Assembly (NCBI GenBank): GCA_011033025.1
Contig: WFMF01000223.1
Span: 215,831-279,830, forward strand
Length of the DNA: 64,000 nucleotides
Direction of reading: 5' to 3'
From: Beroe forskalii
Taxonomy: Eukaryota; Ctenophora; Nuda; Beroida; Beroidae
Made by a program: the position numbers and the translations under genes. How positions within the stretch are numbered: position 1 is the first letter of the stretch; every line of letters begins with the position of its first letter. Under the pieces are notes generated by a model. That model had not been told where the DNA came from. It worked only from the letters and a program-made list of their open reading frames with translations, and did no database searches. Of the stretch, positions 1 through 53,401 are shown one piece after another.

Positions 1-3000
1 GAGGGGGGAGTGTAGTCACATTAACACGTGGTACTTCGCAGGCTTGTTAGTCCCTGAGAGGGGGGAGTGTAGTCACATTAACACGTGGTACTTCGCAGGC
101 TTGTTAGTCCCTGAGAGGGGGGAGTGTAGTCACATTAACACGTGGTACTTCGCAGGCTTGTTAGTCCCTGAGAGGGGGGAGTGTAGTCACATTAACACGT
201 GGTACTTCGCAGGCTTGTTAGTCCCTGAGAGGGGGGAGTGTAGTCACATTAACACGTGGTACTTCGCAGGCTTGTTAGTCCCTGAGAGGGGGGAGTGTAG
301 TCACATTAACACGTGGTACTTCGCAGGCTTGTTAGTCCCTGAGAGGGGGGAGTGTAGTCACATTAACACGTGGTACTTCGCAGGCTTGTTAGTCCCTGAG
401 AGGGGGGAGTGTAGTCACATTAACACGTGGTACTTCGCAGGCTTGTTAGTCCCTGAGAGGGGGAGTGAGTCCCTGAGAGGGGGGGAGTGTAGTCACATTA
501 ACACGTGGTACTTCGCAGGCTTGTTAGTCCCTGAGAGGGGGAGTGTAGTCACATTAACACGTGGTACTTCGCAGGCTTGTTAGTCCCTGAGAGGGGGGAG
601 TGTAGTCACATTAACACGTGGTACTTCGCAGGCTTGTTAGTCCCTGAGAGGGGGGAGTGTAGTCACATTAACACGTGGTACTTCGCAGGCTTGTTAGTCC
701 CTGAGAGGGGGGAGTGTAGTCACATTAACACGTGGTACTTCGCAGGCTTGTTAGTCCCTGAGAGGGGGGAGTGTAGTCACATTAACACGTGGTACTTCGC
801 AGGCTTGTTAGTCCCTGAGAGGGGGGGAGTAGTCACATTAACACGTGGTACTTCGCAGGCTTGTTAGTCCCTGAGAGGGGGAGTGTAGTCACATTAACAC
901 GTGGTACTTCGCAGGCTTGTTAGTCCCTGAGAGGGGGGAGTGTAGTCACATTAACACGTGGTACTTCGCAGGCTTGTTAGTCCCTGAGAGGGGGGAGTGT
1001 AGTCACATTAACACGTGGTACTTCGCAGGCTTGTTAGTCCCTGAGAGGGGGAGTGTAGTCACATTAACACGTGGTACTTCGCAGGCTTGTTAGTCCCTGA
1101 GAGGGGGAGTGTAGTCACATTAACACGTGGTACTTCGCAGGCTTGTTAGTCCCTGAGAGGGGGAGTGTAGTCACATTAACACGTGGTACTTCGCAGGCTT
1201 GTTAGTCCCTGAGAGGGGGAGTGTAGTCACATTAACACGTGGTACTTCGCAGGCTTGTTAGTCCCTGAGAGGGGGGAGTGTAGTCACATTAACACGTGGT
1301 ACTTCGCAGGCTTGTTAGTCCCTGAGAGGGGGGAGTGTAGTCACATTAACACGTGGTACTTCGCAGGCTTGTTAGTCCCTGAGAGGGGGGAGTGTAGTCA
1401 CATTAACACGTGGTACTTCGCAGGCTTGTTAGTCCCTGAGAGGGGGGGAGTGTAGTCACATTAACACGTGGTACTTCGCAGGCTTGTTAGTCCCTGAGAG
1501 GGGGGAGTGTAGTCACATTAACACGTGGTACTTCGCAGGCTTGTTAGTCCCTGAGAGGGGGGAGTGTAGTCACATTAACACGTGGTACTTCGCAGGCTTG
1601 TTAGTCCCTGAGAGGGGGGAGTGTAGTCACATTAACACGTGGTACTTCGCAGGCTTGTTAGTCCCTGAGAGGGGGGGAGTGTAGTCACATTAACACGTGG
1701 TACTTCGCAGGCTTGTTAGTCCCTGAGAGGGGGAGTGTAGTCACATTAACACGTGGTACTTCGCAGGCTTGTTAGTCCCTGAGAGGGGGGAGTGTAGTCA
1801 CATTAACACGTGGTACTTCGCAGGCTTGTTAGTCCCTGAGAGGGGGGAGTGTAGTCACATTAACACGTGGTACTTCGCAGGCTTGTTAGTCCCTGAGAGG
1901 GGGGAGTGTAGTCACATTAACACGTGGTACTTCGCAGGCTTGTTAGTCCCTGAGAGGGGGAGTGTAGTCACATTAACACGTGGTACTTCGCAGGCTTGTT
2001 AGTCCCTGAGAGGGGGGAGTGTAGTCACATTAACACGTGGTACTTCGCAGGCTTGTTAGTCCCTGAGAGGGGGGAGTGTAGTCACATTAACACGTGGTAC
2101 TTCGCAGGCTTGTTAGTCCCTGAGAGGGGGGAGTGTAGTCACATTAACACGTGGTACTTCGCAGGCTTGTTAGTCCCTGAGAGGGGGAGTGTAGTCACAT
2201 TAACACGTGGTACTTCGCAGGCTTGTTAGTCCCTGAGAGGGGGGAGTGTAGTCACATTAACACGTGGTACTTCGCAGGCTTGTTAGTCCCTGAGAGGGGG
2301 GGAGTGTAGTCACATTAACACGTGGTACTTCGCAGGCTTGTTAGTCCCTGAGAGGGGGAGTGTAGTCACATTAACACGTGGTACTTCGCAGGCTTGTTAG
2401 TCCCTGAGAGGGGGGGGAGTGTAGTCACATTAACACGTGGTACTTCGCAGGCTTGTTAGTCCCTGAGAGGGGGAGTGTAGTCACATTAACACGTGGTACT
2501 TCGCAGGCTTGTTAGTCCCTGAGAGGGGGAGTGTAGTCACATTAACACGTGGTACTTCGCAGGCTTGTTAGTCCCTGAGAGGGGGGAGTGTAGTCACATT
2601 AACACGTGGTACTTCGCAGGCTTGTTAGTCCCTGAGAGGGGGGAGTGTAGTCACATTAACACGTGGTACTTCGCAGGTCACATAGTCCCTGAGAGGGGGT
2701 ACATTAACACGTGGTACTTCGCGGCTTGTTAGTCCCTGAGAGGGGGGAGTGTAGTCACATTAACACGTGGTACTTCGCAGGCTTGTTAGTCCCTGAGAGG
2801 GGGGAGTGTAGTCACATTAACACGTGGTACTTCGCAGGCTTGTTAGTCCCTGAGAGGGGGAGTGTAGTCACATTAACACGTGGTACTTCGCAGGCTTGTT
2901 AGTCCCTGAGAGGGGGAGTGTAGTCACATTAACACGTGGTACTTCGCAGGCTTGTTAGTCCCTGAGAGGGGGGAGTGTAGTCACATTAACACGTGGTACT

Positions 3001-6000
3001 TCGCAGGCTTGTTAGTCCCTGAGAGGGGGGAGTGTAGTCACATTAACACGTGGTACGGCAGGCTTGTTAGTCCCTGAGAGGGGGGAGTAACACATTAACA
3101 CGTGGTACTTCGCAGGCTTGTTAGTCCCTGAGAGGGGGAGTGTAGTCACATTAACACGTGGTACTTCGCAGGCTTGTTAGTCCCTGAGAGGGGGGAGTGT
3201 AGTCACATTAATTAACACGGGCTTGTTAGTCCCTGAGAGGGGGAGTGTAGTCACATTAACACGTGGTACTTCGCAGGCTTGTTAGTCCCTGAGAGGGGGG
3301 AGTGTAGTCACATTAACACGTGGTACTTCGCAGGCTTGTTAGTCCCTGAGAGGGGGAGTGTAGTCACATTAACACGTGGTACTTTGTTAGTCCCTGAGAG
3401 GGGGGAGTTAGTCCACGTGGTACTTCGCAGGCTTGTTAGTCCCTGAGAGGGGGGGAGTGTAGTCACATTAACACGTGGTACTTCGCAGGCTTGTTAGTCC
3501 CTGAGAGGGGGGAGTGTAGTCACATTAACACGTGGTACTTTGCAGGCTTGTTAGTCCCTGAGAGGGGGGAGTGTAGTCACATTAACACGTGGTACTTCGC
3601 AGGCTTGTTAGTCCCTGAGAGGGGGGTGTGGTCACATTAACACGTGGTACTTCGCAGGCTTGTTAGTCCCTGAGAGGGGGGAGTGTAGTCACATTAACAC
3701 GTGGTACTTCGCAGGCTTGTTAGTCCCTGAGAGGGGGGAGTGTAGTCACATTAACACGTGGTACTTCGCAGGCTTGTTAGTCCCTGAGAGGGGGAGTGTA
3801 GTCATTAGATTAACACGTGGTACTTCGCAGGCTTGTTAGTCCCTGAGAGGGGGGAGTGTAGTCACATTAACACGTGGTACTTCGCAGGCTTGTTAGTCCC
3901 TGAGAGGGGGGGAGGTAGTCACATTAACACGTGGTACTTTTGTACTTGTTAGTCCCTGAGAGGGGAGATGTAGTCACATTAACAATGTACACTTCGCAGG
4001 CTTGTTAGTCCCTGAGAGGGGGAGGTGGAATACAGACTGGTTTTCAACTTAACACGTGGTATATACGACTTGTTAAAACATAGGCCCTGTTTGTCCCCTG
4101 AGAGGGGGAGGTAGTCACATTAACACGTGGTACTTCGCAGGCTTGTTATAGTCCTCAAGAGAGGGGGGAGGTAGTCACATTAACACGTGGTACTTCGCAG
4201 GCTTTTCATAGTCCCTGAGAGGGGGGAGTGTAGTCACATTAACACGTGGTAGTCGCAGGCTACTTAGTCCCTGAGAGGGGGGAGTGTCGGGTGGAAACAA
4301 TAGCAGGCTTGAAAATCCCTTGGCAAAGGGGATATTAATTGATTAAATACGTTGAATTTGGTACAAACTTTTAATCGCTCAGGCTTGTTAGTCCCTGAGA
4401 GGGGGGAGCCCGTAGTCACATTACACAATGAGGTTCCCTGTGGTACCTGTGTCCTGCAGGACAGGAGCTCTGTTAGTCCCTCAATTCTCAGTAGAGGGGG
4501 GAGTTACTATACAGGGACGGAGACCCTTTTAACACGTGGTAAAATTCTTTCTAGCAGGGCTGGTTGTTAGTCCCCTAGTGTCAGTGGGGGAGCTATGTCA
4601 CATTAACACGTGGTACTTCGCAGGCTTGTTAGTCCCCTGGGGGAGTATTTTGGGTAACACGTGGTACTGGCAGGTCATGATAGCACCACTGATTATTGCA
4701 TTAACACGTGGTACTATAACAGGCTTGTTAGTCCCTGAGAGGGGGGATGAAGATGGACTGAACTATAATTAATGTTAGTCCCTGAGAATAGGGAGGTAGT
4801 CACATTAACACGTGGTACTTCGCAGGCTTGTTAGTCCCTGAGAGGGGGGGGAGCATAAAACCCCATTAACACGTGGTACTTCGCAGGCTTGTTAGTCCCT
4901 GAGAAGAGGGGGAGGTATGAATCAAAATTCTTTAACTATTAAAATTTCCAACTTAACTGGGGAGTGTAGTTTACATTAAATAGTGGTGATATTGCAGGCT
5001 TGTTAGTCCCTGAGAGGGGGAGGTTTCACATTAACACGTGGTACTTCGCAGGCTTGTTAGTCCCTGAGAGGGGGGAGGGTCACATTAACACGTGGTACTT
5101 CGCAGGCTTGTTAGTCCCTGAGAGGGGGGAGGGTAGTCACATTAACACGTGGTACTTCGCAGGCTTGTTAGTCCCTGAGAGGGGGGGGAGGTAGTCACAT
5201 TAACACGTGGTACTTCGCAGGCTTGTTAGTCCCTGAGAGGGGGGGAGTGTAGTCAAATTAACACGTGGTACTAAGGCTTGTTAGTCCCTTGGGGGGAGTA
5301 GTTAACCGTGGTACACGGTTTTTAACTTGAAAACAGGAGGGGGGGAGTGTAGTCACATTAACACGTGGTACTTTAGGCTTGTTAGTCCCTGAGAGGGGGG
5401 AGGAAATACTATTAACACGTGGTACTACGCAGGCTTGTTAGTCCCTGAGAGGGGGGGGTGTAGTCACATTAACACGTGGTACTTCGCAGGCTTGTTAGTC
5501 CCTGAGAGGGGGGAGTGTAGTCACATTAACACGTGGTACTTCGCAGGCTTGTTAGTCCCTGAGAGGGGGGAGTGTAGTCACATTAACACGTGGTAGCATT
5601 GCAGGCTTGTTAGTCCCCTGAGAGGGGGGGAGAGTAAAATACATTAACATGTGGTACTGCAGGCTTGTTAGTCCCTGAGAGGGGGGAGGTGTAGTCACAT
5701 TAATACGTGGTAACAGAATACAAGTATCAGGCAAGACCCATCATCCGTAATCTGGAAAGCACGAACGGAATCATGGTGCTTATCATTAACAACATATCGT
5801 GTTTGATTAGGTTCATGCCACGCCATCATGGAGCATTAGGCATTGAATTAGACCCTGATCCGGACATGATAAGCACATTAACCTATACTGTTACGCAGGC
5901 TTGTTAGTCCCTGAGAGGGGGAGTGTAAATCACATTAAATGACGTGGTACTTTAGCAGGCTTGTTAGTCCCTGGAGCATAGGGAAGTTAAAATACATTTT

Positions 6001-6830
6001 ACACGTATTTCTATGGTTTGCTTGTTTTGTCCCTGAGAGGGGGGAGGTTGTCACATTAACACGTTTTGTACATATTCAGGCTTGGGTAAAATGTACCTGA
6101 AAGGGGGGAAATTAGTCACCCCAACACGTGGTACTTCGCAGGCTTGTTAGTCCCTGAGAGGGGGAGTGTAGTCACATTAACACGTGGTACTTTGCAGGCT
6201 TGTTAGTCCCTGAGAGGGGGGAGTGTAGTCACATTAACACGTGGTACTTCGCAGGCTTGTTAGTCCCTGAGAGGGGGGAGGTAGTCATTAACACGTGGTA
6301 CTTCTGTTAGTCCCTGAGAGGGGGGGGGTGTAGTCACATTAACACGTGGTACTTCGCAGGCTTGTTAGTCCCTGAGAGGGGGGAGTGTAGTCACATTAAC
6401 ACGTGGTACTTCGCAGGCTTGTTAGTCCCTGAGAGGGGGGAGTCACATTAACACGTGGTACTTCGCAGGCTTGTTAGTCCCTGAGAGGGGGGAGTGTAGT
6501 CACATTAACACGTGGTACTTCGCAGGCTTGTTAGTCCCTGAGAGGGGGAGTAGTCACATTAACACGTGGTACTTCGCAGGCTTGTTAGTCCCTGAGAGGG
6601 GGGAGTGTAGTCACATTAACACGTGGTACTTCGCAGGCTTGTTAGTCCCTGAGAGGGGGGAGTGTAGTCATATTAACACGTGGCACTTCGCAGGCTTGTT
6701 AGTCCCTTGATTTTTTAGTCATTTTTGCACGTGAGGGGGGCAATGTTAGTCCCTATGGACTAAGGGGAGTACTCACAACACGTGGTAATTAGTAGGCTTG
6801 TTAGTCCCTTGAGAGGGGGAGTGGCCATGC
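1..6830. repeat. 57-bp satellite array
   Basis: Head-to-tail copies of a ~57-bp unit that contains a G run, then GTGTAGTCACATTAACACGT, then GGTACTTCGCAGGCTTGTTA. The array is near-perfect from 1 to about 3900 (roughly 70 copies) and increasingly broken from 3900 to 6830. Most length variation is in the G run (5 to 8 G), giving units of 56 to 59 bp. Each unit carries CACGTG. When the unit is exactly 57 bp it equals 19 codons, so short repetitive open frames appear and stop wherever the G run changes; they are not genes. The array lies where the last Argonaute intron or the 3' flank of that gene would be. Confidence 0.97.
5707..5895. other. unique insert inside the satellite
   Basis: About 190 bp of non-repetitive sequence interrupts the satellite, with normal units on both sides. 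It can be read as an open frame on the plus strand that starts and ends in satellite sequence, but no family is recognised. It may be an insertion or a remnant of the sequence the satellite expanded into. Confidence 0.5.
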
Positions 6831-7196: not shown

Positions 7197-10100
7197 CCTG
7201 TATTCCAGCGTGGGAGTTGAGGTAGAAGTCGAAGTCTGTTGTGGAAGTGATACCAGCATCGACCACAGTTCCGGCGGGCACGTTACCTGACCTGTCTGCA
7301 TCTCGAGGGTTCTGCGAGGTTATGGGGGTTTAATTGGGTTAATCTCGTTAATTGGGTAATCGACCAATACCTCCATTATACGCTAATCTGTGAGATAATC
7401 TATCAATGCCTCCAATATTGACTTATCAAATTAAATTCTGATTTAATACCTCTCAAATTTCGTTATCGAGCGCCCGCTTAACACGACCACCCCAAAAGCA
7501 GGTAAATTATGAAGCTTATAAGGCTACATCAAAGAGGAATGTATGGTTTGTAGATTTTAAATCGACATCGGAGAAATTTCTGGTTGTGCATTGTAATACG
7601 AGAGGAGTTTCCCCAGTGTGGGACTACACGACTCTCCCCCCCCCCCCCACCTTAGGGGGAGGACGATTTTCTAAAAAACTTGAAAATCAAAAGGAAGATG
7701 AAATTAAGTTCGGTTAGACAGATTTTTTAGGTGGGATCAATCAGTAAAACATGTCGTTAGTTTTTATTTATGCACAGTAGTGAAAAATAGGGCTATGAAA
7801 AATGAAAATCACCTTATATACATTTCTCTCCCCCCCCCCCCTTTAGTTTACAAAGCCCCCTCCCCTTACCGCAGTGAAGAGTCGTGTGTGTGATGTCTCT
7901 TACCGCAGTGAAGAGTCGTGTGTGTGATGTCTCTTACCGCAGTGAAGAGTCGTGTGTGTGATGTCCCTTACCGCAGTGAAGAGTCGTGTGTGTGTGTGTG
8001 TGATGTCCCTTACCGCAGTGAAGAGTCGTGTGTGTGTGTGATGTCTCTTACCGCAGTGAAGAGTCGTGTGTGATGTCTCTTACCGCAGTGAAGAGTCGTG
8101 TGTGTGTGATGTCTCTTACCGCAGTGAAGAGTCGTGTGTGTGTGTGTGTGATGTCTCTTACCGCAGTGAAGAGTCGTGTGTGTGATGTCTCTTACCGCAG
8201 TGAAGAGTCGTGTGTGATGTCTCTTACCGCAGTGAAGAGTCGTGTGTGTGATGTCTCTTACCGCAGTGAAGAGTCTTGTGTGATGTCTCTTCTGACAGAT
8301 GATGAAAGTAACGAGGGGGTTGTATCCCGCTTCCAGCTCTGCACACGCCTTCTTAATGGCGTCCACTTCGTACAACATCACGTGGTAGAACTGCCCTTCC
8401 GACACCCCGTCACGGTAGAAGATGATCCGCTGCGGCTTCACCTTAACAAGGATTGATGAATACGTTAATTATCAAACCAAAGAAAACTGGGAATTTGAGC
8501 AAACCCGAAACCGCTGTTTTTAACAGGTTTAAACCGTAACCGAGGAAAAACAGTGTGTTAAACCGTAACAAAACCAGCCATTTCAAAACATTGTAACCGG
8601 TCTTTTCCCCACTCACCTTGACGGCCTGGTAGAACTTGATGAGCATGTTCTTGACCATGGACTGAAGCTGCTCGATGATTGGACTGTGCGCCTTCTTACC
8701 GTCTGTCTTCTGAATGCCGATCTGCGTGGCGTACCGACACGCGAACTTGTCAACACTCCCGACCAGCGCGCACACACTCGGCCTGCTTCCTTCGCCTGGG
8801 GGCAGAGTGTAACGTGTAAAAAGGGTAAGTAAAAAAGAGTAAAATGTGCAAATAGAGTTTAGAGTGCACCATCTAAACATGGTGAAACGGTGCATTATGA
8901 GTTTTGGTTCACGTGACCAAGCCGGCCCAAACAAAATATGTCGAGTATAGTACAGGAGCGTAGCCAGGGGGAAGGCAACACAGGCGGCTCCTTTTTGGAC
9001 AGAAATAACGAAAATTTTGTTCATTTTGTTTTGAGCCAAGCAAAATAAAACATTCAACAGGTTTTGAATGTAAATCGCCGCCTCCGTTTCAAAAAATCTG
9101 GCTACACCCCTGGTATATCACCTTGTTCACGTGACCAAGCCGGCACTATTAAAATAATATGTGGATTATAGTACCTTGTGCTGGTGCAGCGTTGTCAGCT
9201 CCCATGATAACACAGGGTGTCTTGAAGATGGGGATGTTCAGCATGTCAACAGCGATGTTGTTAGTTCCGCCAATCTTTGCATTCATCTTCTGTAGGATGT
9301 TACCTGGGGAGAAATGTGGGCTTGGTGATGGGAAAATTGGGATGTTCAGTTAGTAGGATTTCGAATTTAAGTCACGATAAGAGCTGTCAATTTAAATGAG
9401 ACTTCATGATTCGGCTCATTCCTAATCAATTCAGTAATCTAGATTAGACTTACCGATAGTCTGAGGCTTAGGTGGCTTGAGATTCCTTAGTTCCATGCAC
9501 TGGGTGCTAATGGCATTCTGGTTCTCGAACGTGTGTTTGATCCTGCCATAGCATGAACTCGAACCCTGAGGGATTCAGCGGTAAAATGGCTGAAATTCAG
9601 AGTTTCAGAACACCGCCTATCAGCGCCAAGAAGAATTTTTACAGGATTTTTAGTCCTAGAAATAAAATATTTCGCCTAACTCCTAACATGAAGCAGTAGA
9701 ACCAAACCCACCTGAGGGAGGATGCAGTAGACCAAGTCTATGGGTCCTTGGTTGGCAGCTTTCTGCTTCAGCTCCTGGCAGACACTCCCAATCTCGTTCT
9801 CTCGGCAGTACTTGACGAATGAGGGCTGTGCGATGTTCATTCCGTTCTCTCTGCCAATCTTTATCATGGAGTTGCAGAACGCCTGATAACACAGAGGAGA
9901 TAATATAGTCGCTTTGAGAGTTGTAAACTGCTTCAGTTTCATAACTTTGTCCTAATGGTTGAATCGATTCAATAGACGAACTATTTTAAGATCCCCCAAG
10001 ATAGCATCTAAAGTAGGTTTAGATGATTCGAGTTAATCAAGCTAAGTCTATACATCGATAGATAGCAGGATATGCAAGTGATAGAACTTAGTTAAATTGA

Positions 10101-12550
10101 ACAGCCCGTCTATCTCTAACCTTGACATCCTCAGTCTGACACCTGTTCTGAGGAGGGAACATGAGAATAGCCCAGTTCTTGATGTGCATGGCGCGGTAGA
10201 ACTGCTTGCCCCTGCTGTCCCAGGAACCTCCCTGAGCCATGCAGGTCGCCTGCTTGTCGTACCCCAGCTTGGGCGGATTGATCACTCTGCCCTTCACCTG
10301 AACCAAACCACCGGTTACCATTTCTCAATGAATCCGGTCACGGAATTAGTCCAGAAAGTGTCGGTTAACCGCGCCCGGTTTTTTACTCTTTCCGGTTACA
10401 GTTCGGATAATAACCGACCATTTCCTCTGAACGGTTAATTGCGAACTCAAACATTCGCCTGCCCTTCACCTGGACCATGCTCTGCTCTATCTCAAAGCCG
10501 AACTGCCGCACGTGCTGGTCTTGAGAGAACTGCATCTTCTGCATCTGCTTGTCAATTCCCTGCTTACGGATGGGGGGTTTCTTGGCAGTGGCCCGGATCA
10601 TGTTACGTGTCTCGTCGTCTGTTAGCTTTCGTACACAACGCTGTCCAGCCACAATGTCACACACCTGGGAAATTATAAGGAATTTCATCGTATTTCATAC
10701 GAATATTCGACTCAGTAGCGTATCAACCCCCTGTTTAAATTAGCTATAAGTTGGATTATTATAAAAACAAATCATTAAAAATTTACAGAGCAGCACGATA
10801 TATCTGCGACATATTGCCACTTGAATCCTTTGAAAAACTGTGAGTTCATTAAAACACACCTCCATGGGAATGAAAGTGTTCTTTTCCTTGGGTGAGACCC
10901 AGATGCAGGGCAGATTGGGGTACTTCAGCGTGTAGCCGTACGTTTCTTTGAAGTACTGAGCGATGCTCACTGTGCGGTTGTCAGACACAAAGCTGATCTG
11001 ACTCGCGGTCTTGTGGGTCAACTTCTCCACCCTGTACTGGGTAGGGGTCATTCGGGGATCCAGGGGTAATTGGGGCCCCCAAGCGTCCCAATTTTACCAG
11101 TTGCAAGTCACATCCTGAGCCCAAATTGTCAAATTTCCTATGTTACCAATTGTCCCATTCGTCCCTCTCCCAATCCATTTTTTTAGTTAGGGACATTTGG
11201 GACAGTGGGCCTCCCCCCCCTAAAAGTACCAGTGACACAAATGTTCATTTAAACCGAAACAATTCTAAGTATCAGTGACACACACTCTCCCAAACAATTC
11301 TAAGTATCCGTGACACCCTCTCACCTGTACTGTCGTCTCTGCGCCTGGTGCTTGACCGACACTCTCAGGAACTTCAGTTGCTTCTCCAGACTGCTCCTGT
11401 CCGAGTCACGCAGGCTGTAGTTCGGCTGTATGTTGCCTCGGATGTTGAGGTGCTTGGCCATGAAGTCCAGGACAGGCTGCTCCTCGTAGAAGGCCGTGTG
11501 GCTCTCGTCCACGTTCAGCACGAGGCCCCAGTTGCTCGGCCGGGCCGAGGTGTAGACCCCCGTCCACATCTCCGTGGCGTTGCCGAGCGAGTGCTTCTCG
11601 TTAGAGGCCGGTGGCTGGTACACGGAGCGTCCGGCGACAGTGAAGCGGAGCGAGGGAAAGTGACGGACCACGATGTCAGCTACCACTAGCGTCTCCTGGG
11701 GAATGTCTCCGAACCCAGAGCCTGAGGGGGGGGTTTAGGGTTAGGGGGATGTCTCCGAACCCAGAGCCTGGGGAGGGGGTTAGGGGATGTCTCCAAAGTC
11801 ACAGCCTGGGAAGGGGGTTAGGGTTAGGGGGATGTCTCCAAAGTCAGAGCCTGGAGGAAGGGGGATTTGTCGTGAAATGGAAGATGAAGAGGTTAAGAAG
11901 ATGAAGAGGTTAATGGAAGATGAAGAGGTTAAGTAATATTAAAAACAAGTAGCAATAAAAAAAGTATAGAAGTTGTACCTTTGAGAACTTGCTCGAGACA
12001 GCTCATGTCGATCTGAGCAGCGAACTTGATGTGGATCTTGAAGGTCCTCGCTTGAGAGTCGGGGGTCTCTGGCATTGCCACCTCAACAGTTTTAGGGTCG
12101 TTGCCAACGTCCAACTTGATTGACGAGTACACGTTCTTGTTTCCGTCGTATACGGGCAGACCATCTGGAAATCATCGATACTTAGAAATCACGCGATTTA
12201 AATTAGCTAAAACTCAGGGGGAAAAGAAGTATTTGAGTCTAATCCTAGTAGCGATCTGAATAATGTAATTCACTAATCTTTGGAATTTTCTCCAAATCAG
12301 TTCATAATCTAAGGCACTTACTCTTGAACACAGTTGCTTTGTTCTGCTGAGCGAAGTGATGAATGAGCTTCCTTCGCAGGAACTTCGGGCACTTCGGCTC
12401 AATGTCAATGTCGTAATGGTAAACTGTGATTCTCGGGTTGAACTTCATCTTGTAGAAGTTAGCGAACAAGTCGATTGGACGCCCTTCCTTGCCCCATCCA
12501 GGCCGGGCAACCGCCTTCTGATTCATTGTCCTTTCAAACGTTGTAGCCAT
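7197..12550 (-). CDS. AGO: Argonaute (AGO clade), 12 exons, C-terminus missing
   Basis: Small-RNA-guided silencing protein of the AGO, not PIWI, clade. Exons on the minus strand: 12322-12550, 11979-12164, 11325-11721, 10860-11031, 10470-10664, 10121-10297, 9712-9882, 9454-9565, 9175-9303, 8617-8795, 8262-8441, 7197-7311. Their phases chain without error for 2242 nt (747 codons + 1). In order they give the N domain ([18 protein letters not shown]), linker, PAZ ([20 protein letters not shown] then [12 protein letters not shown]), MID (FVKYCRENE) and PIWI ([39 protein letters not shown]). Usual length is ~850 residues, so ~100 C-terminal residues, including the last catalytic histidine, lie outside or were lost. 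PIWI is unusual: GADN-AAP replaces GADVTHP, and the expected glutamate is proline (SPIIEQL). The ATG at 12550 follows an acceptor-like TTTTCCTAG, so an upstream exon may extend the N-terminus. The gene is tail to tail with nothing and lies 432 bp below the kinase on the same strand. Confidence 0.93.
7866..8284. repeat. 12-copy minisatellite of the Argonaute exon 11 splice donor
   Basis: Twelve copies of TTACCGCAGTGAAGAGTC separated by variable (GT)n and GATGTCTC, unit 32-43 bp. On the minus strand the unit is the end of Argonaute exon 11 (codons for [10 protein letters not shown]) plus its donor GTAAGA and the first intron bases. The copy next to the exon (8253-8284) is the coding one; the other eleven lie in the 950-bp intron, each with an intact GCG|GTAAGA. 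Confidence 0.95.
11700..11870. repeat. 4-copy minisatellite spanning the Argonaute exon 3 acceptor
   Basis: Four copies of a ~36-50-bp unit (GATGTCTCC-AA-CCAGAGCCTG followed by a G-rich GGTTAGGG stretch). The first copy is the start of Argonaute exon 3 with its acceptor (minus strand CCCCTCAG|GCTCTGGG); the other three lie in the preceding intron. The TTAGGGTTAGGG words belong to this unit and are not a telomere. Confidence 0.85.
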
Positions 12551-12982: not shown

Positions 12983-13726
12983 TCAGTGCAACGTATTGCT
13001 TAGTTTCCTAGGAGCTCTAGGTCGCTTAACCATCATAGGAACGTCAGTCAGCAAGTCAATAATGTGCTGAGATATCAGTCCGATGGCGACCTTATTCTCT
13101 CCCCCTCTCGGGATCACTACGTCAGCGTACTTCTTCGTAGGCAGACAGAATTCTTCAAACGCTGGCTTCACGAAACTGGTGTACTGAGTCAGGACGTTTT
13201 CCAGTTTCCGTCCCCTGTCCACAATGTCCCTTTGGACACGCCTCGCTAGTCGCGTGTCAGAATCAGTGTCCACGAATAACTTCATGTCCAGCAGGTTCCT
13301 CAGTTCCTTGATGTAGAGCACAAGTATACCTTCGATAAGGATTATGTCTGAGGGAGCCACTTGGTACGTTTCCTCGGATCTGCAGTGGTTCACGAAGTCG
13401 TAAATGGGAATCTCCACGGTTTCACGGGCCCGGATTTTTTGGATCTTTTCCAGCATCAAATCGGTGTCAAATGCATCGGGATGATCGAAGTTATAGTGGC
13501 CTTTGACAGCCAGATTCACTTGACCAGGCGTAAGGGGTTTGTAAAAACTGTCCTGGCTCAGTATTAAAACTTTATTGCTGAGATTACTCTCAGTTAAATT
13601 GTCCATGATACACTTACAAACAGTTGTTTTGCCTGATGCAGTACCGCCGGCTACACCAATGATGAAACACCGGTCACTAGAACTGGCATGCCTACCGTTT
13701 CTCAACTCACCATTTACCTCCCCCAT
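12983..13726 (-). CDS. UCK: uridine-cytidine kinase, uninterrupted
   Basis: Phosphorylates uridine and cytidine to UMP and CMP in the pyrimidine salvage pathway, in the cytosol. The 247-residue frame holds the P-loop GVAGGTASGKTT near residues 25-36, the ILSQDSFYKPLT and FDHPDAFD segments of the nucleoside site, VDTDSDTRLARRVQRDI in the lid and the family signature FEEFCLPTKKYADVVIPRG. Length is close to animal UCK1/UCK2 (~260-280). The start is the ATG at 13726; a GTG one codon upstream is not a plausible animal start. The sequence TATCTTTCAG|GGTG just upstream looks like an acceptor, so a non-coding 5' exon is likely. The coding region has no intron, unlike the Argonaute beside it and unlike vertebrate UCK genes, so an old retrocopy is possible, but the frame is intact. 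Confidence 0.95.
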   Translation of the reverse strand: MGEVNGELRNGRHASSSDRCFIIGVAGGTASGKTTVCKCIMDNLTESNLSNKVLILSQDSFYKPLTPGQVNLAVKGHYNFDHPDAFDTDLMLEKIQKIRARETVEIPIYDFVNHCRSEETYQVAPSDIILIEGILVLYIKELRNLLDMKLFVDTDSDTRLARRVQRDIVDRGRKLENVLTQYTSFVKPAFEEFCLPTKKYADVVIPRGGENKVAIGLISQHIIDLLTDVPMMVKRPRAPRKLSNTLH

Positions 13727-14008
13727 CACCCTGAAAGATAGATCTCAACGTCGCTGGTCTCACCGACAAAAATAAGAAAACAGAAGTCAAAAAAACGTAA
13801 CACAACGAAAGATGTCTACCAACATTTAAGACACAGACATTGATTGATAGAAGTAGTCGTCGCATTGAATTATTCGCGACAGTCAAAAGAAAACGCTTGC
13901 GCAAAAAATATTACACGATAATGCCACCGTGTAAAATCTTAGTGCGCGGCGCGAATATAGAATTTAAACTGTGGTGACCCTTTTCTAAAGTTGATCGACC
14001 GACGCGGA

Positions 14009-14820: not shown

Positions 14821-15002
14821 GAAATTTTGACATCAAGTACCACTCGTTGTAAAATCGGACCATACCGATAGCACCCAGAAAAAAGACATCTATCTTTAAT
14901 GTTCAATTATGACATATGCTAATATACTACTTATACTATTGTTGAATTCCAATTTAAACTTTTTATTGACACTTGAGTTGCTTTTGCAAACATTTTTCTG
15001 CA

Positions 15003-16760
15003 ACGATGATGGCATTAGAATAAATAATCTATTAAATAATCTATTAAATTATAAAGACTTCCTACATCATGAAATCACTGATAAACTTAACCTTAGGGAG
15101 TGTACTGAAGAGGAAATAGAGAATATAATTGACGAACTTAAACTAGGAAAATCTAGCGATATACCAATCCATGTGATTAAATTAACTGCTAAAATAACTG
15201 CACCAATTCTATCAATCTTGTACAACAAATGTATGGTTGAAGGATACTTTCCAGCTGAACTTAAAACAGGCAGAATTACACCGATCTACAAAAAAGAAAA
15301 TGAAGAACTGCTTGAAAACTATAGACCTGTTTCTACCTTACCAATTTTCGGGAAAATTTTTGAGAAGGTAATCTTCAACAGAATGTATCAATTTTTTGAG
15401 GACAATGAAATTATCTATGATAACCAGTACGGTTTCAGAAAGGGACACTCAACAAACCATGCTTTAAACTACTCAGTATCCTATATAGAAGAGCAAATTA
15501 AGTCAAAAAAGTATACTCTGGGGATCTTTATTGACCTGAGTAAAGCATTTGATACTATAGATCACGAAATACTGGCCTGTAAGTTGAATAACTATGGAGT
15601 CTGTGGAAAGGCACTGAGCCTAATTAGAAGCTACCTTTCTGGTAGAAGCCAACTAGTTAATGTACTAGAAGAAAAGTCTGAAACTCTCGACGTGCAATTT
15701 GGGGTGCCTCAGGGCTCAGTACTGGGTCCACTACTTTTTATACTATACATTAATGACATTTGTAACTGTTCTGAAAATGGCAAATTTATTTTATTTGCTG
15801 ATGATACTAACATATTTGTTACTGGAAATAACGTAGAAGAGGCTTATTCAAATGCTAACTTAGTTCTGTCAAGGGTATCAGAGTATATGGAATCTAACCT
15901 TTTACATATCAATACTAAGAAATGCTGTTACATGCTTTTTGCGCCCAGTAAGAAAAATTTGTGTACTTCCATTCCTGACCACCTTCAAATATCTGTTTAT
16001 GGAAAAATAATTAATAAAGTTAGTGAGGCTAAATTCCTAGGAGTGTTACTAGATAAAGATTTGTCATGGAAACCTCACATTGCAAAGCTTAACAAGACAC
16101 TAAAAAGTGCATGTGGCAGACTATACCGGATTGTGAACTGTCTACCAGCAAAGCTGCATAAACAAATTTATCATTCACTCTTCGAATCACATCTTAGTTA
16201 TGCTATCTCTGTATGGGGTGGGGTTGCTTTAAGTAACTTAGACCCTGTTTTCCGTACCCAAAAGAAATGCATAAGAATAATGTTCGGTGATACTAACTCA
16301 TTTCTAGAGAAATTTCGCACCTGTGTAAGATGTAAGAGCTCGTCCAATTGATAAGCAAAAACTTGGCAAAGAATTTTTCTGTAGAGAATCGTCCAAGCCT
16401 CTTTTCACCCATGAAAATTTATTAACAGTACAAAATTTATATCGATTAAGAAGTATCATGGAACTAGTAAAAATAGTTCAGTCTAAGGAGCCCAAGCCTA
16501 TCTATCAGACCCTCAATATATCAAAGCGTAGTGGCAACAGGTTCCTCACACCAGAGCCATCAAATTACTTTTCATATAGGGCACCATGGCTCTGGAACTG
16601 TTTTAGAAAAATTCCTAGACTTGAGAATTTCGGCTTTGATAGTGATGAAAACTTGATAAAATCTGTCCTTAAGAAATGTCTCCTAGAAACACAAAAGTCA
16701 GGTTCAGAAAACTGGCTTAATAGCAATTTTACAGAATTTCTCATGGTGGAACCATTATGA
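15003..16760 (+). pseudogene. LINE reverse transcriptase, frameshifted
   Basis: Reverse transcriptase that would copy the element RNA at a nicked target. The frame from about 15003 to 16351 shows YRPVSTLPIFGKIFEKVI, QYGFRKGHSTNHAL, the catalytic FIDLSKAFDTIDH, GVPQGSVLGPLLFILYINDI and the catalytic FADDT. The open frame can be read from an ATG at 14909, but its first ~31 codons are host DNA shared with 21222-21319. At about 16335 a one-base slip puts the rest (ARPIDKQKLGKEFF to the stop near 16760, including PWLWNCF) in another frame. The apurinic endonuclease is absent, so this copy is dead. The LINE clade is not assigned. Confidence 0.88.
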
Positions 16761-22342: not shown

Positions 22343-25300
22343 ATGTCAGTGCTGATTGTTGTTACCATATTAGAAGGTGAGGTGAATTTCATTGTATACA
22401 TTCAAATTATAATTTTTAGCTTGATCAAAATTATTATTTCCCTGAACCTTCTTTCAATAGGTATATCATCAGGTAAATTTTATTTTGTAAAGGCAAGTAT
22501 TTTCCAGGAAAGCAGTTTCCTTCAAAACCAAAGTCAGAACTGCAAGTTTCCTGCAAGTTTGCAAATGAGATACTGAATAGTGACCCTGTATCTCATACAT
22601 CAGCACCCTATTTTAACACTGAGCTAGCATGGGAGTTAGCTAGAAAGACCCTTCATCAGCATCGCCTTCAAAGAACACCTCTGAAGTTAACTGTAATGTT
22701 TTTTTTCCATTTAACTTTTAGATAATCTATCTAAGCCAGGAATTTGGTACAATTGAAATGATCTCAATATCTCAATATTGAGCAAGAAATTCATTATTTT
22801 TAAATCTAATCATTTACAAGAAGTATGTTTTAAATAGATATCAAACTTGATATACCTTATTGGCCTTTATTTAGACCACCTTTTTAACCAGCCTTTTTTA
22901 ACCAGCCCTATGGACAAAAATTGAATCATTTTCGAACCATTTTAACTGGCCCCTTGGACAAAATTTTTTTCTGGTGGTTGCTAGATCAGAGATTTTATGC
23001 TCTGAAATGACCACTGAAAGCCCCTTATTTTCAATAAATTGCATCAAAAGATTGAAATCCTGGTCTGATGTTATGATTTAGGTTACTCATGTGTTATGTA
23101 ATGTTATGAATTTTTTGTCGTTTTTGTCCTTAAGGGCTGGTTAAATAAAGGCCAATAAGGTAACAATAATTCAATGAGCTAATTTACAATTATATGCCAA
23201 TCATTTACTGCATAATCAATAATAGTCAGTATCTATTTCTATCATGGTTACTTTCTCAGTTTTATGCAAAGTCTGGTTCAAATGGGGAAGAAATAGGTCA
23301 TATCATGCTTGATCTTCGTTCAATTTCAAATGAGGGCTCAGAGTACAAGTGGTATCCCTTATCACGATGCAAGTACAAGACTCACAAGCCACAGATCAGA
23401 CTTATGATGTCAATTGAGGATTCTGAAGGAGACCAGCAACCGGTAATGATCAGGCAATCCCATTCAACTTGTATATTGTGTACTGTTCTATTCCTAAATT
23501 TAATAATAATAATACCTACATCTACAACTTGTGTCAGTTATAACTTTTGGACAATGTCTTGAAGATGAGAATGGATCTGAAAATTGTTACATGATAAAGA
23601 ATTAAAATTCTTAGAAACATTTATGGCTGTAATGTTTTCTTTCATGGTTTTACTGTCCCTTAAACCTTATACAATATAGCTTCTTCCTCGCCATAAGAAT
23701 GTTTGACAACCTTTCAGACAACAGATGTTCCTCAACAGAAGAAGTTGTTTGTATCTTTGGATGAAGCATCAGGCTGTTACCAAGTTGGGGAACCATCTCC
23801 AGCAGATCCTACCTACACTTTATCCTTCACCATTGTTGCAGCTGCTGGCCTACTCCCCCTCATAGATGCTACGAAACCTGCTGCTTTTTGTTTCAGGTTC
23901 ATGAGCAACTGTTTGATGCATTTTTAATATTCAATAAGCATAAGTTAGTACCAAGTTAGTATATCTTACTGCAACTTTAGAAGATAACTGTTGAGTCTTG
24001 TGGTTTAGTTACCTAGCCATAGTCATCATTACTTGAGTATTATATTCTCAATGCTTTCCTTTCCGTTCCTTCTCTTCTTTATTTTTCCTTAACTGCTGTT
24101 TCAAATATCCACAAAGGATTATTATCTGTCCAAGAACCCCTAAAGCAGAGAGTGCCATTGCTATCAATATTGCATAATCTATTTCTGCTAAGCAACCAAG
24201 TTTGAAGGGAGTTTGTATTAAAGCACCATCAAGAACAACCAGGCAATCTTCAGGTATAGTACCATAGTATCCTTGGAGCCAGCATGCAACAGCTCTTAGG
24301 ACCTTGGATAATGCCAGAAAATGAATCGGTAAAGTCAGAGAAAGATAGAAATGATCATTTTCTGACGCCTTCTTCTTCAATACTTTAACAAGACGGCTAG
24401 CAACTTTTTTGAAACGAAGTATCATTATGAGAAATGCAAAAACAGCCATTACAGTTGAATTGATAAGTACTAGCCAATCCTTTTTTGTAGAGTATTTGTC
24501 AACATAGAAGTATTCTAGGAATAACTCAGCACCATCCTCAAAAATAAATGCTGTTAAGGAAATAGCTGCACTCACTATCATGAATGTTCCATTTTTCAAT
24601 TCTTTGATTAATTTCCTGTTTTCTTCTGGTAAATCAGTTAACTCTTTAAATTTATCCCATGACTGGCCACTGACATATATATTAAGAAGGCCTATTATCA
24701 TAGTTTTAACAAGTCCAAGTATTGCAAATGCAAGTATTCCATTATTGACATTTTTGTTCCTCATAATATAGGGGTCTAAAAGGTCTTCTGTTAAAAACTC
24801 CAACCTATAAAAATACTGGAAGTCTAATGAGACATCTGCATGGTCATATAGCATGAAAACTGCAGGCCTTACAAACCAAAACAAGGTAAAAGTCGTCTCC
24901 AGTGCTGCTTGCTTATCGGACATACACTTTGTTACAACCTTTTGGCATACACCAAGGAAGTTTAAACTCTCTGGGATGTTTTTTATGTTAGCAACAAAGA
25001 GGTGATGAGTCCGTCTTCCATAGAATGCATACAATAGGAATGAAGTTCCGTAAATGAAGGTTGCTATAAATAATGGGGTCTCCACAAATCTCTGATATGC
25101 GACAGTTTGGTTTCCGACCCACGGCCGGGATTCCCATATCTTGGTTATCCCGCAATATGTAATGTTATTGCTTCCAAGAGTTGTGCACCCATCCTCAGTC
25201 GCTAATAAGGATTCTCGAAAATCAGTTTCTGATGTCATTTTCATGAGATTTGTTGCTTTTTGGCGCAATTTGTTGTTTATCTGTGTCTTTTGCAGCCCTG

Positions 25301-48819: not shown

Positions 48820-51800
48820 TCAAGTAACCTGGTAGTGCGCAGGGGAGTCGAAGGTATCCCGGATAACGGAACCCCAGGGAAGAATAACCTGGTAGTGAGC
48901 AGGGGAGTCGAAGGTATCCCCCAGGAAGAATAACCTGGTGGAACCCCAAGGGGAAGAATAAAGAACAACCTGGTAGTGCGCAGGGGAGTCGAAGGTATCC
49001 CGGATAACGGAACCCCAGGGAAGAATAACCTGGTAGTGAGCAGGGGAGTCGAAGGTATCCCGGATAACGGAACCCCAGGGAAGAATAACCTGGTAGTGAG
49101 CAGGGAGTCGAAGGTATCCCGGATAACGGAACCCCAGGGAAGAATAACCTGGTGGTGAGCAGGGGAGTCGAAGGTATCCCGGATAACGGAACCCCAGGGA
49201 AGAATAACCTGGTAGTGAGCAGGGGAGTCGAAGGTATCCCGGATAACGGAACCCCAGGAAGAATAACCTGGTAGTGAGCAGGGAGTCGAAGGTATCCCGG
49301 ATAACGGAACCCCAGGAAGAATAACCCAGTGAGCAGGGAGTCGAAGGTATCCCGGATAACGGAACCCCAGGGAAGAATAACCTGGTAGTGAGCAGGGGAG
49401 TCGAAGGTATCCCGATAACGGAACCCCAGGGAAGAATAACCTGGTAGTGAGCAGGGAGTCGAAGGTATCCCGGATAACGGAAACCCAGGAAGAATAACCT
49501 GGTAGTGAGCAGGGGAGTCGAAGGTATCCCGGATAACGGAACCCCAGGGAAGAATAACCTGGTAGTGAGCAGGGGAGTCGAAGGTATCCCGGATAACGGA
49601 ACCCCAGGGAAGAATAACCTGGTAGTGAGCAGGGAGTCGAAGGTATCCCGGATAACGGAACCCCAGGGAAGAATAACCTGGTAGTGAGCAGGGGAGTCGA
49701 AGGTATCCCGGATAACGGAACCCCAGGGAAGAATAACCTGGTAGTGAGCAGGGGAGTCGAAGGTATCCCGGATAACGGAACCCCAGGGAAGAATAACCTG
49801 GTAGTGAGCAGGGGAGTCGAAGGTATCCCGGATAACGGAACCCCAGGGAAGAATAACCTGGTAGTGAGCAGGGAGTCGAAGGTATCCCGGATAACGGAAC
49901 CCCCAGGGAAGAATAACCTGGTAGTGAGCAGGGGAGTCGAAGGTATCCCGGATAACGGAAACCCCAGGGAAGAATAACCTGGTAGTGAGCAGGGGAGTCG
50001 AAGGTATCCCGGATAACGGAACCCCAGGGAAGAATAACCTGGTAGTGAGCAGGGGAGTCGAAGGTATCCCGGATAACGGAACCCCAGGAAGAATAACCTG
50101 GTAGTGAGCAGGGGAGTCGAAGGATAACCCCCAGGGAAGAATAACCTGGTAGTGAGCAGGGGAGTCGAAGGTATCCCGGATAACGGAACCCCAGGGAAGA
50201 ATAACCTGGTAGTGAGCAGGGGAGTCGAAGGTATCCCGGATAACGGAACCCCAGGGAAGAATAACCTGGTAGTGAGCAGGGGAGTCGAAGGTATCCCGGA
50301 TAACGGAACCCCAGCGAAGAATAGAAGAATAACCTGGTAGTGCGCAGGGGAGTCGAAGGTATCCCGGATAACGGAACCCCAGGGAAGAATAACCTGGTAG
50401 TGAGCAGGGGAGTCGAAGGTATCCCGGATAACGGAACCCCAGGGAAGAATAACCTGGTAGTGAGCAGGGGAGTCGAAGGTATCCCGGATAACGGAACCCC
50501 AGGGAAGAATAACCTGGTAGTGAGCAGGGGAGTCGAAGGTATCCCGGATAACGGAACCCCAGGGAAGAATAACCTGGTAGTGAGCAGGGGAGTCGAAGGT
50601 ATCCCGGATAACGGAACCCCAGGGAAGAATAACCTGGTAGTGAGCAGGGGAGTCGAAGGTATCCCGGATAACGGAACCCCAGGGAAGAATAACCTGGTAG
50701 TGAGCAGGGGAGTCGAAGGTATCCCGGATAACGGAACCCCAGGGAAGAATAACCTGGTAGTGAGCAGGGGAGTCGAAGGTATCCCGGATAACGGAACCCC
50801 AGGGAAGAATAACCTGGTAGTGAGCAGGGAGTCGAAGGTATCCCGGATAACGGAACCCCAGGGAAGAATAACCTGGTAGTGAGCAGGGGAGTCGAAGGTA
50901 TCCCGGATAACGGAACCCCAGGGAAGAATAACCTGGTAGTGAGCAGGGAGTCGAAGGTATCCCGGATAACGGAACCCCAGGGAAGAATAACCTGGTAGTG
51001 AGCAGGGGAGTCGAAGGTATCCCGGATAACGGAACCCCAGGGAAGAATAACCTGGTAGTGAGCAGGGGAGTCGAAGGTATCCCGGATAACGGAACCCCAG
51101 GGAAGAAATAACCTGGTAGTGAGCAGGGGAGTCGAAGGTATCCCGGATAACGGAACCCCAGGGAAGAATAACCTGGTAGTGAGCAGGGGAGTCGAAGGTA
51201 TCCCGGATAACGGAACCCCAGGGAAGAATAACCTGGTAGTGAGCAGGGGAGTCGAAGGTATCCCGGATAACGGAACCCCAGGGAAGAATAACCTGGTAGT
51301 GAGCAGGGGAGTCGAAGGTATCCCGGATAACGGAACCCCAGGGAAGAATAACCTGGTAGTGAGCAGGGGAGTCGAAGGTATCCCGGATAACGGAACCCCA
51401 GGGAAGAATAACCTGGTAGTGAGCAGGGGAGTCGAAGGTATCCCGGATAACGGAACCCCAGGGAAGAATAACCTGGTAGTGAGCAGGGGGAGTCGAAGGT
51501 ATCCCGGATAACGGAACCCCAGGGAAGAATAACCTGGTAGTGAGCAGGGGAGTCGAAGGTATCCCGGATAACGGAACCCCAGGGAAGAAATAACCTGGTA
51601 GTGAGCAGGGGGAGTCGAAGGTATCCCGGATAAACCCCAGGAAGAATAACCTGGTAGTGAGCAGGGAGCGAAGGTATCCCGGATAACGGAACCCCAGGGA
51701 AGAATAACCTGGCAGTGAGCAGGGGAGTCGAAGGTATCCCGGATAACGGAACCCCAGGGAAGAATAACCTGGTAGTGAGCAGGGGAGTCGAAGGTATCCC

Positions 51801-52380
51801 GGATAACGGAACCCCAGGAAGAATAACCTGGTAGTGAGCAGGGGAGTCGAAGGTATCCCGGATAACGGAACCCCAGGGAAGAATAACCTGGTAGTGAGAA
51901 GAATAACCTGGTAGGAGGGAGTCGAAGGTATCCCGGATAACGGAACCCCAGGGAAGAATAACCTGGTAGTGAGCAGGGGAGTCGAAGGTATCCCGGATAA
52001 CGGAACCCCAGGGAAGAATAACCTGGTAGTGAGCAGGGGGAGTCGAAGGTATCCCGGATAACGGAACCCCAGGAAGAATAACCTGGTAGTGAGCAGGGAG
52101 TCGAAGGTATCCCGGATAACGGAACCCCAGGGAAGAATAACCTGGTAGTGAGCAGGGGAGTCGAAGGTATCCCGGATAACGGAACCCCAGGGAAGAATAA
52201 CCTGGTAGTGAGCAGGGGAGTCGAAGGTATCCCGGATAACGGAACCCCAGGAAGAATAACCTGGTAGTGAGCAGGAGTCGAAGGTATCCCGGATAACGGA
52301 ACCCCAGGGAAGAATAACCTGGTAGTGAGCAGGGGAGTCGAAGGTATCCCGGATAACGGAACCCCAGCGAAGAATAACGG
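48820..52380. repeat. 60-bp satellite array in an SLF2-like intron
   Basis: About 59 copies of a 60-bp unit (AGCAGGGGAGTCGAAGGTAT, CCCGGATAACGGAACCCCAG, GGAAGAATAACCTGGTAGTG). Variation is almost all in G and C runs; a few units are shortened. None of the three minus-strand frames of the unit has a stop, so frames of more than 1200 codons are open by chance. It separates the exon at 48588-48738 from the upstream exon near 52400. Confidence 0.97.
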
Positions 52381-52394
52381 AGGTCGAGGCTCAT

Positions 52395-52493
52395 AATAAC
52401 CAGTGTAACTGGGTGGCAGAGGTCGTATCTCGTCTGGGACCTGCCAGCTCAGGTAGGGCCTTGTGGCCCGTGATGGTGTGTAACCTATTCCTT
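52395..52493 (-). pseudogene. SLF2-like upstream exon, damaged copy
   Basis: Matches the exon at 56940-57036 (shared GAGCTGG, GTCCC-GACGAGATACGA and the CCGTTTCAG-type acceptor), but it lacks ~15 bases after AAGGA and carries base losses that place stops in frame. Since this copy also has shorter homopolymers than the other, consensus error is as likely as true decay. Confidence 0.5.
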
Positions 52494-52899
52494 CTGAAAC
52501 AGTAATTTCTGAGAAGTTAGTTTTTGGAAAGCTATATTGGGGTCGCTTTATATAGTACACTTTATACTTTTATATATAATACACTTGTATTTGAAGTTTT
52601 ACTTTTAAAGAATTTGACCACACTGATTTCAAGATTTGAAAACAAACACCATATTATCATAAAATGGCAATTCTCAACTACTCAAATGACACAATCTCAA
52701 TCCACACACAAGAAAACTTTAGTGAACTTATATCCATTAATCACTGCCACGTTGTATAACCTGTAAATAGGTAACACACGCAATCGTGCAGGTATTTGCA
52801 AATAATGGGGGCAACTCGAAAAACCATAAACCCCGAAAAATTAAACCTGTTGGCTTTTGTATCCTTCGGGGTTTTGGGGTTTAAATTTGAATGTACTAG

Positions 52900-53301
52900 T
52901 GCCATTTAAAATAGGATAAAATCCAACTAAAATGGACCATTCAGAAAGGGTCAAGTCTCAACAAAATGGTGTCATTGAAAAAAGCGGAAATTTTCTCAAA
53001 ATGGTACTATTTCTGAATAAATTTAAAATTTCTCAACAGAAAGGTAGTTTTTAATTTAAGAAAGTCAGAGAATCGTCAAGCAAAATGATACCATTTAAGA
53101 AAGAAAATCAATCCTCAAAATGAATTTTCTACAACAAGAAAGAGTTAAAAATCTTCAGCAAAATGGTATCATTTCAGAAGGCTTGAAAATCTGAACAAAA
53201 TGGTACCATTTCAGATTAAGATCGAAATCGTCAACAAAATGGTACCATTTCAAAGAAGGGCCCAAAAATCTCAACAAAATAATATGTACCATTTGAGAAA
53301 G
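52900..53301. repeat. ~45-bp tandem repeat with AAATGGTACCATTT
   Basis: About eight degenerate copies of a unit containing the 14-bp palindrome AAATGGTACCATTT followed by CAGAAAG and TCAACAA, ending at the assembly gap. The same array recurs at 57440-57590. Confidence 0.8.
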
Positions 53302-53401
53302 NNNNNNNNNNNNNNNNNNNNNNNNNNNNNNNNNNNNNNNNNNNNNNNNNNNNNNNNNNNNNNNNNNNNNNNNNNNNNNNNNNNNNNNNNNNNNNNNNNN
53401 N
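53302..53401. other. assembly gap (100 N)
   Basis: Exactly 100 N. The contig that follows re-reads the locus before the gap. Confidence 0.99.

Follow-up and report, generated by a model that had tools for sequence, protein, structure and literature searches.

How does a protein-coding gene come to carry introns whose two ends are bounded by the same bases? The question is raised by an Argonaute (AGO1/2-like) gene in 64,000 nucleotides of Beroe forskalii DNA (assembly GCA_011033025.1, contig WFMF01000223.1, positions 215,831 to 279,830), a stretch referred to below as the window. Five introns of this gene (3, 4, 5, 7 and 10) carry direct repeats in register with their donor and acceptor sites (Table 1). 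With a probability of roughly 88%, we propose that intron 5 is an introner, that is, an intron formed by a transposable element, and that intron 10 is probably another: a hAT-like miniature inverted-repeat transposable element (MITE) would have inserted into the Argonaute exon at an AG|GT (the bar marks the splice junction) that became duplicated.

Table 1. Window coordinates of the Argonaute gene, its repeat-bearing introns and the elements within them.
Feature	Position	Strand	Evidence
Argonaute (AGO1/2-like) gene, exons 1-12	7197..12550	-	spliced alignment to P0001; PDB argonaute-2, E 2e-189; eight-sequence alignment
Intron 5, probable MITE-derived intron (introner)	10298..10469	-	junction repeat, genome matches, MITE alignment, family profile
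Donor-side copy of the putative 14-bp target duplication, CAG|GTGAAGGGCAG	10459..10472	-	
Acceptor-side copy of the putative 14-bp target duplication, CAG|GTGAAGGGCAG; VKGR encoded by its exonic part	10287..10300	-	
MITE in intron 5, consensus positions 83-229 of 230	10302..10457	-	85% identity (137 bases aligned)
Intron 10, probable older introner in reverse orientation, AAGGTGAG/AAGGTGAA at junctions (7/8)	8442..8616	-	junction repeat, pairwise test, profile, shuffles
Probable remnant of a decayed MITE within intron 10; terminus some 9 bases inside the donor	8487..8607	+	nhmmer 12.1 bits, E 0.0013
Intron 3, 8-bp repeat CAGTACAG at both ends	11032..11324	-	junction repeat, genome search
Intron 7, 8-bp repeat TCCCTCAG at both ends	9566..9711	-	junction repeat, genome search
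Intron 4, 8-bp match AG|GTGTGT	10665..10859	-	junction repeat, genome search, mismatched pairs

The element in intron 5 and its probable relative in intron 10

Spliced alignment to a relative protein of 856 amino acids (P0001, 91% identical) divided the gene, whose exon 1 starts at 12550, into 14 exons and 13 introns, rather than the eleven introns counted in the original prediction, which had been made from the letters of the window. Intron 12 runs off the start of the window, and intron 13 lies wholly beyond it, as do exons 13 and 14 (L009). Junctions 1 to 11 are consistent with the proteins of an eight-sequence alignment, and the frame is restored at the intron 11 acceptor (7312); junctions 12 and 13 are taken from the spliced alignment to P0001 alone. 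The closest solved structure to the product is argonaute-2, and the sole named animal among the 12 hits of a protein search was Pleurobrachia bachei, represented by a partial match to its argonaute 2 with 58% identity, the match by which the host is taken as probably a ctenophore.

The 14-bp repeat of intron 5, CAGGTGAAGGGCAG, is perfect in both copies, with bases 1-11 of the intron identical to bases 1-11 of the following exon, and the predicted match of 18 out of 20 bases holds on re-reading of the sequence. Joining the flanks of the intron gives MVQVKGRV, the same residues as in relatives, and the relatives' proteins run unbroken across this site in the eight-sequence alignment. The element abuts the repeat directly; its end next to the acceptor copy is intact except for the last base, and the other 82 bp are absent. 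A search of the genome (216 Mb in 1134 contigs) with 241 bases around intron 5 returned at least 42 matches, the intron included, and the true number may be higher, as scores were computed for 40 of 109 candidates; the other 41 cover the interior of the query, and a few of them extend some bases beyond the acceptor. Identity to the family consensus is 85% for the intron 5 element, compared with a median of 88% for 20 other introner copies and of 97% for the 26 genomic rows of the family alignment, a biased set chosen by similarity. The suggestion that several introns of the gene are young is not shown by these figures, as the intron 5 element is near the introner median and more diverged than the rows picked by similarity.

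Introns 5 and 10 were both matched by a family profile from which intron 5 had been left out. When the profile (26 genomic rows and 20 introner copies) was run over 93 introns, E fell below 0.01 for these two only, with 86.3 bits for intron 5 and a reverse-strand match for intron 10 scored as in Table 1, the third-best intron reaching 2.9 bits (E 0.81). In 1000 dinucleotide shuffles of the intron 10 sequence its score was never attained (best shuffle 7.7 bits), and a pairwise test gave 1/300. The far end of the intron 10 element is past recognition. Judged by this match, intron 10 is probably an older introner of the same MITE family as intron 5.

None of the five repeat-bearing positions is common to the paralogue models C612 (a model of low identity) or C210. 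The positions of introns 9 (in C612), 12 and 13 (in C210) are shared with these models and carry no long repeat, a pattern that would fit later gain of the repeat-bearing introns without proving it. A literature search for human Argonaute intron positions found none.

Tandem repeats also occur at exon ends of the gene. A 34-bp unit, consisting of the end of exon 11 (RHHTRLFTA) and its GTAAG donor, stands in about 12 tandem copies at the intron 11 donor (window 7865-8291), so that some twelve donors may compete, with changes of frame. The first part of exon 3, together with the acceptor (CAGGCTCTGGGTTCGGAGACAT), is present in about four tandem copies including the exon's own, the others lying within intron 2 (window 11698-11864), and most of intron 12 is occupied by a 57-bp minisatellite of about 110 copies (window 1-6707). 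A second Argonaute with a 651-codon open frame is found in C210 near 22680-25190 (L010); the Argonaute genes of C612 and C274 are, by contrast, intron-rich.

The repeat family and its copies at other genes

Alignment of 26 rows from 25 places, two rows representing one place, gave a consensus of 230 bp with the ends TAGGAAACGACCGG...CCGGTCGTTTGGTA. The alignment carries the signs of transposition, namely terminal inverted repeats and 8-bp target duplications; perfect 8-bp flanking duplications of varied sequence were present in 16 of the 26 rows. By its sequences the family is a general MITE, and some of its insertions apparently survive as introns. Its likeliest affiliation is that of a non-autonomous hAT element: as in MITEs of the hAT superfamily, target duplications of 8 bp are combined with short inverted repeats beginning TAGG and a length of about 230 bp. 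In difference from these, the present family is linked to no transposase, and no autonomous partner was sought.

A genome pattern search for the MITE end followed by N{0,4}AGGT revealed 20 hits, and the reversed pattern none; AGGT stood at target offset 1 in 12 of the 20, duplicates counted. When GGT was held at target positions 3-5, it was preceded by CA in 10 of 22 hits and, after tandem and duplicate loci had been collapsed by hand, in 8 of 19, against 1/16 expected under equal base use (9e-6). A looser pattern returned 27 hits, including Argonaute intron 5, and its reversed control 3.

Altogether 31 loci were read: one set of 18, another of 12, and L046. A MITE between duplicated AG|GT fits 20 of them, 7 in forward and 13 in reverse orientation, which correspond to about 17 distinct insertions once duplicate genes, recognized by common flanks (L046/L061, L059/L060 and L064/L069), are collapsed. 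Related copies thus fit as introns at numerous unrelated loci, and the MITE family is on this reading an introner family. At the 20 loci donors were chosen partly by the repeat and right sites by the AGGT pattern, hence the run lengths there are no independent test. L057, L058 and L073 were dropped for lack of a left end equal to the right flank, L062 for a 5/8 match with the donor out of register, and L076, L078, L079, L082 and L085 for lack of a convincing donor. L065 and L068, full MITEs with 7/8 and 8/8 duplications holding AAGGT, were left out of the 20, their frames lying outside the comparison.

Known proteins aligned across the rejoined junction at 7 of the 20 loci (Pfam, PDB). They include an M14 carboxypeptidase (Pfam 5e-54, PDB 6e-39), a dynamin/DRP1 (PDB 4.5e-35), INTS11 at L086 (PDB 1.4e-18) and the Pfam families DIOX_N, Peptidase_C1 and DPPIV_N. 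Two introners about 760 bp apart, C462:150697 (L084) and C462:151455 (L067), lie in apparently one papain-type protease gene, with Peptidase_C1 at both. The Pfam search covered 13 of the 20 joined products (L060, L061, L064, L069, L070, L071 and L080 stand outside this set) and assigned a family to 7 of the 13 (L046, L063, L066, L067, L074, L083, L084) and to none of the other six (L059, L072, L075, L077, L081 and L086, the last being INTS11 by PDB).

The copies share several features of their junctions. Right copies at L066, L072 and L074 are CAGGTGAA, as at intron 5, and in a number of copies it is the initial T of the element that completes the donor, for example CAG|GTGAG+TAGC (L072) and CAG|GTAAG+TAGC (L067). 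Donor-side and exon-side copies frequently differ at donor positions 3-5, which may reflect selection for a better donor. The intron at L046 lies in a KIF21A-like gene with CAGGTATC/CAGGTAAC at its junctions; its protein match ends 4 residues short of the junction and was left out of the 7 crossings. At this locus (C303:603456-603597) the 3' end of the introner together with CAG|GTAAC is repeated three times in tandem, so that several acceptors are possible, and the shorter copy L061 on C212 seems to be without this tandem end.

Junction repeats, controls and competing explanations

All five in-register repeats named in the original prediction were recovered at their positions. Identity to the left and right of the junction extends over 8+1 bases at intron 3, 2+6 at intron 4, 3+11 at intron 5, 8+1 at intron 7 and 3+4 at intron 10, the runs of introns 1 to 13 being 0, 3, 9, 8, 14, 3, 9, 5, 3, 7, 1, 2 and 5. 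Permutation of acceptors within the gene gave p = 9e-5 for at least five runs of at least 7. The background comprised 80 introns of the same genome, 20 from paralogue C612, 4 from paralogue C210 and 56 from other genes (VCP, EEF2, a gene we take to be EFTUD2-like and three Na/K-ATPase pieces); C825, C769 and the C568 locus, presumably Piwi (model unreliable), were excluded from the junction statistics. Runs of at least 7 occurred in 5/13 Argonaute versus 2/80 background introns (Fisher 4.4e-4), of at least 8 in 4/13 versus 1/80 (Fisher 0.0011) and of at least 9 in 3/13 versus 0/80 (Fisher 0.0022). Among 8556 mismatched donor/acceptor pairs, in which runs were cut at 10 bases each side, the same thresholds were reached by 100, 21 and 6.

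The comparison of donor/acceptor identity with shuffled pairs, which had been proposed for all introns of the genome and was run here on 93, thus confirmed an excess in the Argonaute gene, whereas the 80 background introns were not above mismatched pairs at 7 or 8 (0.24, 0.18), and this small sample gives no sign of a genome-wide excess of long repeats. The background figures are approximate, since part of the junctions were taken from automatic models made with diverged queries, and a small number are probably in error. The repeats at introns 3, 5 and 7 are clearly beyond chance; those at introns 4 and 10, judged by the repeat alone, are borderline.

Insertion of an introner with target-site duplication, one of the two models offered with the prediction, accounts for intron 5, with its MITE between 14-bp copies, and probably for intron 10; for introns 3 and 7 genome searches found no repeat-family element reaching both junctions. 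The middle of intron 3 holds a fragment that is foreign to the MITE family and stops before the splice sites, for which reason intron 3 is not counted as an introner here. The other repeat family, with the end TAGAGGGGGGTGCCACTGTCCC, was met at L090 (C558) as well as in this fragment. A chance likeness of splice-site sequence is a tentative explanation for the repeats of introns 3, 4 and 7. It would suit intron 4, whose run of 8 recurs among the mismatched pairs, and searches with introns 4 and 7 returned no match in the genome except the introns themselves; the runs of 9 at introns 3 and 7, so rarely equalled in mismatched pairs and never in the background, speak against it.

For intron 5 the main rival is a truncated insertion by break repair, in which repair of a staggered double-strand break put a stray MITE fragment into the exon as filler, with a 14-bp duplication and no transposition. 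We regard this as unlikely. It would accommodate a repeat of 14 rather than 8 bp and the missing MITE terminus, and short direct repeats have been linked to intron gains by break repair in Daphnia. The near-intact MITE end, however, lies right at CAGGTGAA, the site type of other introners (L066, L072, L074), and other copies are shortened too (153 bp at L061 versus 274 at L046), though the start of L061 is still recognisable. Very improbable is an old intron that later took in a MITE and whose ends match by chance or by later duplication: the intron 5 element is truncated and 15% diverged from the consensus, and MITE copies occur also at sites without AG|GT, but the 11-base intron/exon identity abutting the element would require a separate exact duplication, the C612 and C210 models have no intron at this position, and the arrangement of a MITE between AG|GT recurs in other genes. 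Least credible of all is the second model offered with the prediction, tandem duplication of an AGGT-containing exon segment, which could appeal to the tandem arrays at donor 11 and acceptor 2 and does not work for intron 5, where the interior consists of a repeat spread through the genome and not of exon sequence.

Several observations weigh against the introner origin that we favour. The 14-bp repeat of intron 5, where the family makes 8, and the absent terminus require the assumption of either a subsequent rearrangement or another kind of insertion event. The match of intron 10 to the family is weak. The splice model relies on P0001, which is just 91% identical, and the fit is read from the DNA of one species. 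Among the 25 similarity-picked places AGGT stands in the flanking duplication at L046 only (plus the right flank of L021), which points to a general MITE and not an intron-only element. Eleven of the 31 loci showed no fit or were not carried further. Finally the L075 site has a near-duplicate, L021 (C769), which was also matched by the looser pattern, stands outside the tabulated 20, and has the MITE end and CAG|GTCAGG with flanks that agree at 2/8.

A proposed route from insertion to intron, and the known introners

In the mechanism proposed here, a non-autonomous hAT-like MITE would insert into a continuous exon at CAGGTGAA (at intron 10, AAGGTGA[A/G]). Targets such as CAGGTnnn or AAGGTnnn would be duplicated on insertion, which would place AG|GT on each side, so that the upstream copy could offer the spliceosome a donor GT and the downstream copy an acceptor AG. 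Splicing would then remove the element and one target copy, with the former reading frame exactly regained and the message left unchanged. Sequence comparison establishes the element family, its inverted repeats, the 8-bp duplications and, in several genes, the fit between duplicated AG|GT with a known protein restored; the introns are presumably spliced in vivo, and splicing may be the reason that AG|GT insertions survive. The element ends might supply branch-point and pyrimidine signals, GGTTAACCGGTCGTTTCCTACAG resembling a branch site and tract. The end GGTTAACCGGTCGTTTCCTA before CAG has a similar form at both inverted ends, and such signals at both ends would explain introns in both orientations.

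A wider reading, put forward tentatively, is that intron gain in ctenophores may be driven by DNA transposons: a general hAT-like MITE whose two inverted ends both carry branch-site and pyrimidine signals could be spliced at once in either orientation at AG|GT, most repeat-bearing Argonaute introns (5, 10 and, as older decayed cases, 3, 7 and 4) might have begun in this way, and a real share of the introns of this animal might be transposon-born.

Introners of Aureococcus reportedly have 8-bp target duplications (Huff et al. 2016). No report of an introner in a ctenophore was found in a literature search; a 2025 survey may contain one. The sole paper matching both introner and ctenophore had introner just in a reference title, and by their titles and abstract starts no ctenophore introner was reported among the matches listed in related searches (best 10 of 1305 and best 10 of 19). 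According to a 2022 survey of 3,325 genomes, introners occur in algae, fungi, protists and some animals, the latter being two animal groups only, and in some families both splice sites are derived from the site of insertion (PMC9860276). The main text of the survey contains no word beginning ctenophor- (PMC9860276).

The present family resembles those described there in that introns of many genes are formed by one transposon family, which has inverted repeats and target duplications and obtains its splice sites where it inserts; in contrast to the two animal groups of the survey, the host here is probably a ctenophore, and the MITE is also found at sites without AG|GT and forms introns in both orientations (PMC9860276). 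Another parallel is the DNA-transposon introner of Aureococcus, for which a figure legend gives an 8-bp target duplication as in the family here; the example shown brings both splice sites with it and lengthens the transcript by 12 bases, whereas here the target would supply both and the protein has no addition at the checked loci (PMC9860276). Introners being rare in animals by the survey's account (PMC9860276), the present case offers a recognisable source element in a marine lineage that branches close to the base of the animals. Copies at and away from AG|GT, together with single genes hit twice, provide a direct system for studying the conversion of a transposon into an intron and the requirements that the element ends have to satisfy, and a gene of RNA silencing has itself been hit, once clearly and probably twice.

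Elsewhere in the window, a uridine-cytidine kinase gene (12986-13744) lies upstream of Argonaute on the same strand as one open frame with no introns, with relatives of 97% and 88% identity among the matches listed, at least 120 in number, none of which bears the name of a ctenophore. A reverse-transcriptase frame (RVT_1) at 14900-16760 probably belongs to an element like a long interspersed nuclear element. The stretch 57000-64000, which adjoins a decaying 60-bp satellite (48961-56448), is a long series of G/A/C runs in which either strand has open frames, and looks like an assembly or polishing artefact.

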